DNA from: Porphyromonadaceae bacterium
GTDB taxonomy: Bacteria > Bacteroidota > Bacteroidia > Bacteroidales > UBA12481
Direction of reading: 5' to 3'
Assembly (NCBI GenBank): GCA_007280905.1
Contig: QYQM01000163.1
Coordinates: 1-36,170 of the forward strand
Length of the DNA: 36,170 bases
This document shows, piece by piece, positions 17,265-22,090 of the stretch. The position numbers were made by a program, and so were the translations under genes. The notes under the pieces are model-generated. The model was not told the origin of the DNA and ran no database searches. It saw only the letters and a program-made list of their open reading frames with translations. Position 1 is the stretch's first letter. Each line of letters begins with the position of its first letter.

Positions 17265-18304
17265 GATTCAACAGGAGTTCGTCCGCGACGGTTTCTGAGA
17301 ATAACCCAAATGACTACCGGTGCTCCAAAAATAGCAGTGACTGTATTGATCGGCAGCACCTGGTTTGAGGCCGGAAGTTGGGCAAGAATATCACAAATGA
17401 GCATAATGATTGCTCCGCACATCAAAGTGGCCGGAGTCAACCGGCGGTGATCAGATGTTCTGAGGATAGCCCTGGCCAGATGCGGAACCGCAACGCCCAC
17501 AAAGGCAATCGGACCGGTAAAAGCAGTTATGGCACCGGTTAATAAACTTGTTATCAATATAATAACGATTCTCGACCGTTTAACATTAACACCGATTACC
17601 CTGGCATGGTTCTCACCTAAAAGTAAGGCATTGAGTGGTTTTCTAAGAATCAACCCAGCGAAAATCCCGGCAATTACCAATGGTGTCAAAAGTTTCAGAT
17701 GCGGAGCTGTTACCGCACTGATGTCGCCAAACGTCCAAACCAGAAAACTCTTAACCGTATCGGGATCAGCAAAATATTGCAACAGGCTGACGATGGCCCC
17801 GGTAGCGCTTCCGAACATCATTCCGATGATCAGGATGGATACCGAATCGGCTACCCTGACGGACACCAGGATCACAAAGAGCATGACAGCCAGAGCCCCG
17901 GCCATGGCTGCAATTACCATTCCCCAGTGACCAAAAGGTAGCGCCTGAACCAGGGCATTTCCGCCGAACCAGGATGAGGCCATAACCAGCAAAGCCACAC
18001 CCAGACTGGCACCGGAGCTGATACCTAGGACGAATGGTCCGGCCAATGGATTCCTGAAAAGGGTCTGCATAAGGAGTCCGCATAAGGCCAATCCCGAACC
18101 GGCAAGGATTGCCGTAATGGCTTTGGGCAATCGGAGGCTCCAAATAATATAATCCACATTCTGGTTATCTGATTTGCCAAGCAGAACATCAGAAAAATCT
18201 TTAAACGAAAGACGAACACTGCCGAACAGCAAATCCCCGATAAAGGCGAGAATCAATATTCCAGCCAGTACCGCGAAAATCCATCCGGATCGCTTTGATG
18301 TCAT
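17261..18304 (-). CDS. FecCD-family permease of the same ABC importer
   Basis: A 347-residue inner membrane permease of the FecCD/BtuC family, with about ten membrane helices. Typical motifs are RLPKAITAILAGSGLALCGLLMQTLFRNPLAGPFVLGISSGASLG (about residues 58-102) and, near the C-terminus, GPIAFVGVAVPHLARAI, the ATPase contact loop. An RxLP motif begins the core. Its stop overlaps the ATPase start by four bases and its start lies four bases after the binding protein stop. It would form a homodimer that takes substrate from the periplasmic lipoprotein. Confidence 0.94.
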   Translation of the reverse strand: MTSKRSGWIFAVLAGILILAFIGDLLFGSVRLSFKDFSDVLLGKSDNQNVDYIIWSLRLPKAITAILAGSGLALCGLLMQTLFRNPLAGPFVLGISSGASLGVALLVMASSWFGGNALVQALPFGHWGMVIAAMAGALAVMLFVILVSVRVADSVSILIIGMMFGSATGAIVSLLQYFADPDTVKSFLVWTFGDISAVTAPHLKLLTPLVIAGIFAGLILRKPLNALLLGENHARVIGVNVKRSRIVIILITSLLTGAITAFTGPIAFVGVAVPHLARAILRTSDHRRLTPATLMCGAIIMLICDILAQLPASNQVLPINTVTAIFGAPVVIWVILRNRRGRTPVES

Positions 18305-18308
18305 CTTA

Positions 18309-19544
18309 TTAATTAAATATCAATGGTTTATAATAATTCCACACATGATCAGGCATTAATCCCGGATGTGCAATAGCCAATAAATCGGCAAGGACCCTAT
18401 CAGGCCGGACTACAGCACTCTCCCAGAAATCATTTCCACCATGGGAATTAACGCGGTTAAACACGCTGAACACCCGGTGTTCTTTCAATGCACTGAAAAC
18501 GGAATATCGTGCCTCTGCCCCAATTAATTGAGAAAGAGATTCCACATTGACGTTGATCCAAACCGGCGCATCAGCCAATTGATACACAACGGATTCAAAG
18601 CTCAGCGCCAGACTGGCTGACTGGTCAGTATTCTTCCATAGATAGTCCATTCCGGCATCCTCAAAAAACCGGGCCATATAATTTTTCCCTCCGGGCATGT
18701 ACCAGGTGCCTTTAAACACGTTACCTGTAAGTACTTTGATCTTTTCCGAAGCTTCACGGCCCAGTTTAGCGCAGGCCAGGTAATTCTTTTCGATCAGATC
18801 AAAAAGTGAATCAGCTTCCCTGATCTTGCCCGTTATCATTCCGAAAACCTTGATCCATTCCGCCCGCCCAAGAGGGGTCGATTCCATCCATTCCAGCACA
18901 AACATCACCGGAATGCCCATCCTGGTCAATCTTGCATCGGGGTTAAACTGTCCGTCGATGCCCGTTTGTAAAACCAGATCGGGTTTACTGGCAATAAGGT
19001 ATTCCAAGTTATACTCCAGATCATGCCCCATGCGAACCAGATCACCTTTCAGAAACCGGTTGAACAACACAGTGTCGTATAATCTTTCCGGATTGTTGCA
19101 GCCGATAAGCTGATCACCTGCACCAATGGCCGACAGGAATCCGGCCTGAGTGGTGGAAGATGCAGCCAGGCTCTTCACCGGGACCACGATATCAGTATAA
19201 CCGTCCTTTGGTTTAACTCCGTATTTGGATTGAACAAGCCGGTAACGGGCAATCTCTTTCCCTGCTCTGATTGGATCAGATATTATCAGTATAGTTCCTG
19301 CCGCACTCCTTTCAAACCGGAAACCTTTTGCATAGGTAACCGACAGCAAAGAGGTATCCGGATTTCGGAAAGCTTTCGAAATATCCACCGCCGGCTGCTG
19401 CCTCCCCTGACACCCTGCAAGAACCAGAAAGACAATAATTACTGATATAAGCGCAAAGTACTTGTCATCCCCGCGAAGGCCGGGACCCCGTTGCTTACAA
19501 CGAATGCTTCCTTTGTCACCCCGTGACGCTGTACTTAGTCTCAT
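18309..19544 (-). CDS. Substrate-binding lipoprotein of the ABC importer
   Basis: A 411-residue class III periplasmic binding protein (BtuF/FepB-like). A hydrophobic segment FALISVIIVFLVLAGC puts the lipobox cysteine at residue 45. The lobe structure is marked by VKSLAASSTTQAGFLSAIGAGDQLIG, NLEYLIASKPDLVL and GNVFKGTWYMPGGKNYMARF. The first 28 residues are odd: arginine-rich, and encoded by DNA that includes one arm of the palindromic repeat found inside feoAB (19464-19489). The original start seems to have been replaced by repeat sequence, so ATG 19544 makes an unusually long n-region. The protein delivers an iron compound, haem or B12 to the FecCD permease. Confidence 0.9.
   Translation of the reverse strand: MRLSTASRGDKGSIRCKQRGPGLRGDDKYFALISVIIVFLVLAGCQGRQQPAVDISKAFRNPDTSLLSVTYAKGFRFERSAAGTILIISDPIRAGKEIARYRLVQSKYGVKPKDGYTDIVVPVKSLAASSTTQAGFLSAIGAGDQLIGCNNPERLYDTVLFNRFLKGDLVRMGHDLEYNLEYLIASKPDLVLQTGIDGQFNPDARLTRMGIPVMFVLEWMESTPLGRAEWIKVFGMITGKIREADSLFDLIEKNYLACAKLGREASEKIKVLTGNVFKGTWYMPGGKNYMARFFEDAGMDYLWKNTDQSASLALSFESVVYQLADAPVWINVNVESLSQLIGAEARYSVFSALKEHRVFSVFNRVNSHGGNDFWESAVVRPDRVLADLLAIAHPGLMPDHVWNYYKPLIFN
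19464..19489. repeat. Single arm of the feoAB palindromic repeat
   Basis: A 26-base match to the left arm at 19868-19893 with two differences. It begins GTCATCCCCGCGAA and ends GGGACCCC. The sequence downstream (to about 19540) has no matching second arm, so this copy is partial. It lies inside the 5' coding part of the binding lipoprotein gene. Confidence 0.8.
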
Positions 19545-19590
19545 TTCCTTTTTTGAGTCACGAAGATAATGCTTCGGATTTTATCATACC

Positions 19591-19605
19591 TTAGAATCAT
19601 TCTAA
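19591..19605. promoter_or_regulatory. Putative Fur operator between the ABC importer operon and feoAB
   Basis: A 7-1-7 palindrome, TTAGAAT-C-ATTCTAA, in the 92 bases separating the divergent starts. The layout equals the Fur 7-1-7 box (known enterobacterial form TGATAATnATTATCA), with a variant sequence. Its right edge lies about 15 bases before the -7 box of feoAB, where it would overlap the -33 region. It could control both directions. A DtxR-type regulator is an alternative. Confidence 0.6.
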
Positions 19606-19619
19606 ATAGTAAAAAAGGA

Positions 19620-19627
19620 TATCTTTG
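19620..19627 (+). promoter_or_regulatory. -7 box of feoAB
   Basis: TATCTTTG is a full match to the Bacteroidota -7 element TAnnTTTG. Transcription would begin near 19632, only about five bases before the ATG at 19637, so the transcript would be nearly leaderless. Confidence 0.6.
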
Positions 19628-19636
19628 CGATCGGTT

Positions 19637-22090
19637 ATGACATTAGCAGAACTTCAAACTGGTCAGAAAGGCGTGATCACCAAGGTGAAAGGCCGTGGTG
19701 TGTTCCGCAGGCGGATCATGGATATGGGTTTCATTCATGGCAAGGAAGTCACGGTGATTAAATCGGCTCCGCTTCAAGATCCCATTGAATATCTGATAAT
19801 TGGATATAATGTATCCTTACGGCGCTCCGAAGCTGAACTGATAGAAATAGTACCGGCCGGAGCTCCTGTCATCCCCGCGAAAGCAGGGACCCCGTCACGC
19901 TACACGGAGGCTAGCAAGGGAGTGAAGGAGCAAAGTGCATGGCACGAAAGAGTCCCCGAAATGAATGTCGTGGTTAGCGAGGGGGTCCCTGCCTTCGCGG
20001 GGATGACAAGTGCTCCAGTCAGCCCCGTGAAAACCATGATTGAGGTCGCCCTTGTGGGTAACCCCAATTGCGGCAAAACATCGATTTTCAACCTGGCCAG
20101 CAACTCACGGGAACATACCGGGAATTACGCCGGAGTGACAGTGGACTCCAAAATTGCTGAAATCCAAATAGATAATCAAACTTTCCAGCTCACAGACCTT
20201 CCGGGCACCTATTCCCTCAGTACATATAGTCCCGATGAATTATTCGTCCGTGATCAGCTTTTATTCGAACATCCGGATGTGGCCATAAATGTCATTGATG
20301 CTTCAAACATTGAGCGCAACCTTTATTTGACCACGCAATTGATCGATATGGATATTCCGGTTGTGATCGCGCTCAACATGTATGACGAACTTGAGCAAAG
20401 CGGCCATATACTCAATCATGAACTCCTCGGTAAAATGCTGGGAATCCCGGTGGTTCCAACTGTCGGTATCAAAGGAACCGGTATTGATCAGTTGTTCAGG
20501 AAAGTAATCGAGGTGATGGAAGGAAGGGATAGAATTACACGCCATATTCATATCCCGTATGATCCTGAAATAGAGATCAGTATAAAAAAAATACAAGATA
20601 AATTATGGGATTCACCTGATTTCTCCGACCGCTTTTCAAGCCGGTTCCTGGCGATAAAGTTGTTGGAGCACAATCCGGAGATCCTGAAATCGGTAAACGG
20701 GATAACAGCAACAGAGGAACTCACACAATTGGCAGATAAGGAAATCGCCCGCATTGAAAGCTTTTACAAGCAGGATGTTGAAAGCCTTCTTACCGATTCA
20801 AGATATGGGTTTATTTCAGGTGCTTTGCGTGAAACCCTGAAAAAGAAAGTGATCCCGGAAGACCGGAGAACTCCTACATCCAGAATTGATAGTATCCTGA
20901 CTCATAAGTGGTTAGGTTTTCCTATTTTCCTGCTGTTTCTGTGGATCATGTTTCAATCGACCTTTAACCTCGGAAAATATCCGGTTCAGGGAATTCAAGC
21001 TGCCGTTCAGGCTTTATCGGGATGGCTTCATCTTGCCCTCCCGATAGGTATTCTGAAAGATTTTCTGATTGACGGCATCATTGGCGGTGTTGGAGGAGTA
21101 ATCATATTTCTTCCTAACATTCTGATTCTCTTCTTTTTCATTTCATTTATGGAAGATACCGGCTATATGGCCAGGGTAGCGTTTATAATGGACAAACTGA
21201 TGCATCTGATCGGCTTGCATGGGAAATCCTTTATTCCGCTCATCATGGGTTTCGGATGCAATGTTCCGGCCATTATGGCAACCCGCACCATTGAAAACCG
21301 CGGCGACCGGCTCATGACGATGCTGATTCTTCCTTTGATGTCATGCAGTGCCCGCTTACCGGTATACATTTTGATTGCCGGGGTGATTTTCCCCAGCCAG
21401 GCAGCCAATGTAATTTTCGGACTGTACCTGGTCGGAATTGTATTATCCATTTTGATGGCATTGATTCTCAGGAACACCCTGTTTCGTCACCAGGAGGCGC
21501 CATTTGTAATGGAATTGCCGCCTTACCGCAGCCCCCATTCAAACGCCATCTTAAAACACATGTGGTTCAGAAGCCGCCTATACTTAAAGAAGATGGGCGG
21601 AGTCATACTAATAGCATCCATGATCATCTGGGCTTTGGGCTATTTTCCGAGAACCTCGGAAAATAAAACCCTGCAGTTGGAAGGTTCCGCGATCGGACAT
21701 ATTGGCCGTGCTGTTCAACCTGTGCTTGCTCCGCTTGGCTTCGACTGGAAAATGTCGGTCGCAGTGCTATCCGGAATCGCCGCTAAAGAAGTGGTTGTAA
21801 GCACGATTGGCGTTTTATATCAGGACGGAGATCCTAGCTCATCCATGCAAGACCGAATGATGAAATCGAAACATACCGAAGGCCGCTTGAAAGGTCAAAA
21901 TGTATTTTCCCTTCGGGCCGGACTGGCATTTATGCTTTTTGTCCTGATTTATGTTCCGTGCATCGCGGTACTTGCGGCAATCCGCCGGGAATCGGGAAAA
22001 TGGAAATGGTCGGCACTGATGATAGGCTACATGACCATTCTTGCCTGGATCGTTGCCAGGTTAGGCTACTTCGTCACCAGCCTCTTCTGA
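19637..22090 (+). CDS. feoB: Fused ferrous iron transporter FeoAB with an in-frame repeat insertion
   Basis: An 817-residue FeoA-FeoB fusion, the main Fe(II) importer of anaerobes. The FeoA SH3-like domain fills about residues 1-75 (GQKGVITKVKGRGVFRRRIMDMGF). The FeoB G domain starts near Met134: G1 GNPNCGKTS (141-149), G3 DLPGTYS, G4 NMYD. The membrane part holds the two gate repeats with GFGCNVPAI and, near the end, SGIAAKEVVVSTIG. Residues 78-124 are foreign: they are translated from a 140-base palindromic element and read VIPAKAGTPS at one end and GVPAFAGMTS at the other. A TTG at 19625 could start upstream but overlaps the promoter, so ATG 19637 is chosen. A Fur-like site precedes it and a hairpin terminator follows. 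Confidence 0.95.
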   Translation: MTLAELQTGQKGVITKVKGRGVFRRRIMDMGFIHGKEVTVIKSAPLQDPIEYLIIGYNVSLRRSEAELIEIVPAGAPVIPAKAGTPSRYTEASKGVKEQSAWHERVPEMNVVVSEGVPAFAGMTSAPVSPVKTMIEVALVGNPNCGKTSIFNLASNSREHTGNYAGVTVDSKIAEIQIDNQTFQLTDLPGTYSLSTYSPDELFVRDQLLFEHPDVAINVIDASNIERNLYLTTQLIDMDIPVVIALNMYDELEQSGHILNHELLGKMLGIPVVPTVGIKGTGIDQLFRKVIEVMEGRDRITRHIHIPYDPEIEISIKKIQDKLWDSPDFSDRFSSRFLAIKLLEHNPEILKSVNGITATEELTQLADKEIARIESFYKQDVESLLTDSRYGFISGALRETLKKKVIPEDRRTPTSRIDSILTHKWLGFPIFLLFLWIMFQSTFNLGKYPVQGIQAAVQALSGWLHLALPIGILKDFLIDGIIGGVGGVIIFLPNILILFFFISFMEDTGYMARVAFIMDKLMHLIGLHGKSFIPLIMGFGCNVPAIMATRTIENRGDRLMTMLILPLMSCSARLPVYILIAGVIFPSQAANVIFGLYLVGIVLSILMALILRNTLFRHQEAPFVMELPPYRSPHSNAILKHMWFRSRLYLKKMGGVILIASMIIWALGYFPRTSENKTLQLEGSAIGHIGRAVQPVLAPLGFDWKMSVAVLSGIAAKEVVVSTIGVLYQDGDPSSSMQDRMMKSKHTEGRLKGQNVFSLRAGLAFMLFVLIYVPCIAVLAAIRRESGKWKWSALMIGYMTILAWIVARLGYFVTSLF
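19868..20007. repeat. 140-base palindromic element inside feoAB
   Basis: Arms of 26 bases at 19868-19893 and 19982-20007 are inverted copies with one mismatch. They start GTCATCCCCGCGAA and end with its complement TTCGCGGGGATGAC. The type is the widespread 'CCCGCGAAAGCGGG' bacterial repeat. It has no stop in the feoAB frame. A further, partial copy lies at 19464-19489. Confidence 0.9.

Follow-up and report, generated by a model that had tools for sequence, protein, structure and literature searches.

The gene for the binding lipoprotein of an ABC-type iron importer in genome G000, the source of contig QYQM01000163.1 whose 36,170 nucleotides form the window analysed here, probably carries an old and tolerated REP-like insertion just behind its start codon. 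The repeat would have entered before several species of the genus diverged, and it lies in frame. Sequence comparison among G000 and its relatives (G001-G008, G010 and G040) shows the insert at a site shared between species, together with an open frame, a start at conserved spacing and weak constraint on the amino acids. In favour of this reading we count the same place of the repeat in the carriers, the spacing of the start, the open frame, the absence of the arm from five of five repeat-free orthologues, the pN/pS values and the tree. Against it we count the small set used for constraint, one part of which looks constrained, internal starts, differing arm subfamilies and the appearance of one origin in only 66% of bootstrap trees.

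The lipoprotein ORF (18309-19544, minus strand; ORF and domain search) encodes 411 amino acids with a Peripla_BP_2 domain (PF01497), and is followed by genes for a FecCD permease and an ABC ATPase. Its divergent neighbour is a FeoA-FeoB fusion (19625-22090, plus strand), listed with a TTG start and with an ATG at 19637 also in frame, whose linker holds two arms. Pattern match and translation confirmed the preliminary description in placing a 26-nt repeat arm, GTCATCCCCGCGAAGGCCGGGACCCC, at 19464-19489 (plus strand), in frame within the lipoprotein ORF (19544-18309, minus strand) and before the signal peptide; in pattern match and folds the arm is a TGTC-tagged palindrome with one stem mismatch. 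The flank at 19490-19541 (plus strand) looks, by eye, like the tails beside other copies (GTTGCTTACAACGAATGC, GTGACGCTGTACTTAG); its outer limit is approximate, and the lipoprotein ATG abuts this tail-like sequence. GTACTT at 19458-19463 and 19531-19536 is a candidate target-site duplication, similar letters of which recur in tails of the family, and no clear duplication was seen in the filled/empty comparison of IspG.

The translated lipoprotein begins with MRLSTASRGDKGSIRCKQRGPGLRGDDKY and continues with FALISVIIVFLVLAGC. The extension before FALISVIIVFLVLAGC takes up residues 1-29 (19458-19544, minus strand) and includes 5 Arg, 3 Lys and 3 Asp, so the odd N-terminus described earlier is real, and its length is 29 instead of about 28 arginine-rich residues. 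The hydrophobic core and lipobox follow at 19410-19457 (minus strand); the lipobox LAGC ends at Cys45 (codon 19412-19410), which is invariant in nine aligned orthologues. Codon 1, the ATG at 19542-19544 (minus strand), is the only in-frame ATG, GTG or TTG among the 44 codons ahead of this cysteine in G000. Upstream stands the box TTATCTTCG (19561-19569, minus strand), a putative Bacteroidetes -7 element, and it is kept in G000, G001, G002, G003, G004 and G006. Between the divergent genes and outside the insert lies a palindrome, TTAGAATCATTCTAA (19591-19605), alike in G000, G001, G004 and G006, which on comparison might be an operator, possibly a metalloregulator site. Rfam gave no match at gathering thresholds for window positions 18000-21000, and RNA structure was unremarkable in five stretches (z-scores -0.65 to -1.48).

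The lipoprotein was found in 39 of the 60 genomes searched, own genome counted, and 5' ends were read at ten loci (L001 to L010) out of the matched genomes. Besides G000, the same repeat family occupies the same place in G001, G004, G006 and, in degenerate form, G003; a fuzzy arm search found the arm in four of these five carriers and missed that of G003, which is too decayed. None of the repeat-free orthologues in G002, G007, G008, G010 and G040 had an arm in the fuzzy search around their 5' ends, and all five begin with a usual short signal peptide. The proposal that repeat DNA provides the N-terminal extension is thus upheld, since the arm is in frame and the same extension is seen in none of the five orthologues lacking the repeat. 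G005, of the same genus, gave no match to the lipoprotein. In G003 (contig C422, L200 2296-2363) much of the signal-peptide core (VVMVVMVVM) is encoded by a 9-bp tandem repeat, GGTTGTAAT, in 7.6 copies, and the length of this core could therefore change in three-residue steps.

The arms at the lipoprotein site belong to different subfamilies in different species, and what fills the IspG, PrmC and RND-lipoprotein sites likewise varies among several species. Both points would suit separate insertions at one favoured site, or later replacement of the arm by family members, which we hold to be possible but doubtful. Against it, G001, G004 and G006 align without gaps from box to core, and the spacer GCATTCGTTGTAAG, or one close to it, stands beside the arm in G000, G004 and G006, though this spacer is itself common across the family. 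In a tree of nine mature sequences a single branch (support 69/94) sets the five carriers apart, so that one state change suffices, and one change was found in 66% of bootstrap trees. This tree leaves four of its six inner branches open and includes three long rows. A single origin of the insertion fits these data and is not proven by them.

The preliminary description held that the native start codon was lost and that the frame now begins in or beyond repeat DNA. The distance from the box TTATCTTCG to the start is 16 nt in G000, 18 nt in G001, 18 nt with GTG in G003, 18 nt in G004 and 15 or 18 nt in G006, and in the repeat-free G002 the start lies 27 nt behind the box. Because this spacing is conserved, start-codon loss is not our leading view, and the claim is not supported: in all five repeat-bearing orthologues read, 15-18 nt separate the box from a start that lies outside the arm. 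What stands of the second claim is the position at the edge of the repeat, not a start inside the arm. Destruction of the native start, with recruitment of a new one in or beyond repeat DNA, would agree with an ATG that abuts tail-like repeat sequence and with native codons between start and core that are unreadable in G000, but the spacing kept in five of five carriers makes it unlikely.

From the start to the lipobox Cys the frame is open in five of the five carriers (G000, G001, G003, G004 and G006), as it is in G002, and within the box-to-Cys stretch of the carriers the two alternative frames hold 3 and 3 stops in G000, 8 and 3 in G003, 6 and 3 in G004, 5 and 2 in G006, and 4 and 4 in G001. 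A single stop interrupts the Cys frame ahead of the start in each of G003, G004 and G006, but G000 and G001 have no stop there. Further in-frame ATG or GTG codons lie near the core in G001, G003, G004 and G006, so translation of the extension is less certain in these four species. Such codons could mean that the repeat is an untranslated leader in most carriers, with internal starts by the core and an open frame by coincidence. The accessible text of PMC3733652 points out that many REPs assigned to protein N-termini may in truth lie outside genes, owing to misannotation, and this is the main caution for the N-terminal placement here. We nevertheless regard an untranslated leader as quite improbable: G000 has no internal codon of this kind, the repeat frame is open in all five carriers with the other frames closed, and the internal starts of G004, G006 and G001 would leave no basic residue ahead of the core. 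An assembly or binning artefact around the multicopy repeat, suggested by the 185 contigs of G000 and by relatives that are mostly MAGs, is hardly credible, as the same arrangement occurs in four other assemblies with different sequence.

Constraint was compared over 24 codons of the extension in three species, with G000 and G003 left out because of length differences. The pN/pS values of the extension were 0.35/0.33 (G001-G004), 0.25/0.30 (G001-G006) and 0.21/0.27 (G004-G006), and those of the mature part were 0.14/0.74, 0.05/0.29 and 0.13/0.75 for the same pairs. Codons 10-24 in the G004-G006 pair look constrained (pN 0.06 against pS 0.28), and the pS of the extension is lower than that of the mature part in two of the three pairs, for which we offer no explanation. 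These values suggest weak constraint on the amino acids of the extension with the frame kept, in a sample too small to prove neutrality.

An ancestral insertion kept in frame could be pictured as follows. A REP-like palindrome resembling the CGTC/TGTC-tagged kind would have entered behind the start codon of the lipoprotein gene in the ancestor, leaving the promoter-like box, the shared palindrome and the position of the start outside the insert. The gene would then be read through the repeat in frame, so that an extended basic n-region precedes an ordinary lipobox, and after lipidation signal peptidase II would cut before Cys45 and the extension would be discarded. This discarding, as we infer it, may be the reason why the frame rather than the sequence has been kept. 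One ancestral insertion, use of the ATG at 19542-19544, and export and cleavage of the product are the inferred parts of this scheme.

The divergent iron gene bears the same repeat family, as had been noticed at the outset, with arms in both the lipoprotein ORF and the feoAB linker. The two copies were described as one element, and this is right for the family and not for the layout. A two-armed copy (19867-20007, plus strand; pattern match and domains) lies in frame between the FeoA and FeoB domains; one of its arms occupies 19868-19893, with 2 mismatches, and the other 19982-20007 on the minus strand, with 1. The copy in the lipoprotein gene consists of a single arm and, after it, tail sequences which are also found beside other arms. 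Residues derived from the family are present in the FeoAB linker of G000, G001, G004 and G006, four of the five carriers at the lipoprotein site. Repeat-free FeoAB linkers are histidine-rich in G007, G010 and G002, and the repeat-bearing species have no such linkers; the linker of G008 is short. No feoAB was found beside the lipoprotein gene at the G003 and G040 loci.

Three arm matches occur in the window, and 100 shuffles gave a mean of 0.00. Across G000 there were 31 matches to a first pattern and 63 to a second, different pattern, with 0 for the reversed-pattern control both times; the 31 and the 63 are different sets, and the feoAB arms (reading GCAGG) fit the first pattern and not the second. 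We examined 55 of the 63 second-pattern arms for residence in ORFs. Twenty of them are spread over 18 ORFs that are 190 aa or longer, although in three of these ORFs the arm does no more than lend the first ATG, and the remaining 35 lie in shorter ORFs or in none that is gene-like. The 18 ORFs were sorted by eye with Pfam and congeners, and the numbers are raw counts. In seven the arm is well inside a conserved protein: IspG, a PrmC-like protein, GH92, an Fe-S/NAD oxidoreductase, an E2 acyltransferase, an M1 peptidase, where the arm precedes the Por tail, and a TMEM260-like protein, where only one domain is over the cut-off. Two have the arm at a signal peptide (the binding lipoprotein and an RND/HlyD lipoprotein), and in six (topoisomerase, PorZ, lumazine-binding protein, a lipoprotein, a permease and one without Pfam match) the protein probably begins only after the arm. 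Three of the 18 could not be sorted.

The insertions of IspG (L206, L207) and of the PrmC-like protein (L214-L221) sit in conserved loops, and congeners differ in whether these loops hold an insert. G000 and G004 have a filled IspG loop, the latter with a second insert nearby, and G005 has an empty one; the G001 contig ends within repeat sequence, that of G006 just before it, and the G002 and G007 pieces fall short. The PrmC-like protein has residues of the family in G000, G003 and G004 and none in G002, and in G006 (L216, L220) the loop that is repeat-filled in other species holds a low-complexity insertion of CALRLEPS type. In the RND/HlyD fusion lipoprotein (L157 1377-2546) the signal peptide is preceded by residues of the family, as seen in G000, G001, G004 and G007.

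A Y1 transposase was considered as a dedicated mover of the element and is not favoured. At two G000 copies (C168, L052 about 1955-1995; C102, L053 about 1764-1804) a CCACTA...TAGTGG hairpin encloses an arm; at a third place, C92, nothing but the outer edge is shared. The arm was adjacent to the transposase at C168 and C102 only, and among the matches listed it stood beside the transposase at none of the 19 loci examined from other genomes, so hitchhiking is likelier than a dedicated mover.

CGTC-tagged REPs, as far as the accessible text of Di Nocera et al. 2013 (PMC3733652) goes, have a terminal unpaired CGTC, TGTC or CCTC tag, a stem of 8-9 bp with complementary A and T at its first and second positions, a loop of 4-5 nt and a 3-bp tail that is mostly CCA; head-to-head dimers predominate, with no transposase association. 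The same text names Bacteroidetes among the phyla with CGTC repeats, reports intragenic, in-frame REPs, and considers that REP residues may be neutral where they fall in linkers or at the ends of proteins. Our element shares the TGTC tag (here 19463-19466), the intragenic units and a 4-nt loop in folds of the window arm. It differs from that description in the tail, mostly CCC in the window arm and 27 printed pattern matches instead of CCA, and in the first stem pair, which is A-C in 55 of 63 G000 arms instead of A-T. An A-T first pair occurs in 8 of the 63 G000 arms and 15 of 17 G007 arms, by a pattern that allows only C or T there, and the second stem pair is kept. The consensus stem has 8 bp, but in the commonest G000 arms pairing extends over 7 bp in addition to the first pair, and the window arm has its mismatch inside the stem. 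Exact inverted arm pairs about 110-130 bp apart were seen only at C47, C51, C71 and C168 (8 of 63 arms), plus feoAB, a count which degenerate partners would escape. Because the tail and the first stem pair depart from the description, we do not class the element as a full CGTC-tagged REP; it resembles this group and may be called REP-like.

Rickettsia palindromic elements, by their description in the accessible parts of PMC10969869 and PMC3733652, also lie in frame within unrelated protein-coding genes, as the present element does in FeoAB, IspG, the PrmC-like protein, GH92 and others. They are a functional parallel (PMC10969869); the host here is an uncultured Bacteroidales genus. GTAG REPs with RAYT transposases, as outlined in PMC3733652, are likewise short dispersed hairpins, and G000 has Y1 transposase genes (PF01797), but there is no GTAG tag here and, among the loci examined, adjacency of arm and transposase is limited to C168 and C102 of G000. 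A conserved position within a lipoprotein signal peptide was not found in the accessible text of PMC3733652, and no in-frame REPs of this genus were described in the portions of open-licence literature searched. In-frame REPs themselves are already known (PMC3733652, as accessible), and what appears new is the place, the persistence and the host genus.

The insertions are common to several species and part of a genome-wide pattern, which the preliminary description had missed. We see about even chances that this Bacteroidales genus is home to a system of palindromic elements that code for protein. Its copies would settle repeatedly at the same tolerant sites, namely n-regions of signal peptides, linkers between domains, and loops in core enzymes (IspG and PrmC among them), and there the frame would be kept but hardly the amino acids. 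This broader reading is graded lower because four of the five carriers have internal starts and one sub-comparison of constraint is contrary. If it is true, the element system keeps feeding new segments into proteins. A dispersed palindrome would now be part of a lipoprotein signal peptide and persist across several species, and gene starts called beside these repeats need checking. In this genus filled and empty versions of one gene can be compared, which is relevant to the mobility of such elements and to their tolerance by genes.
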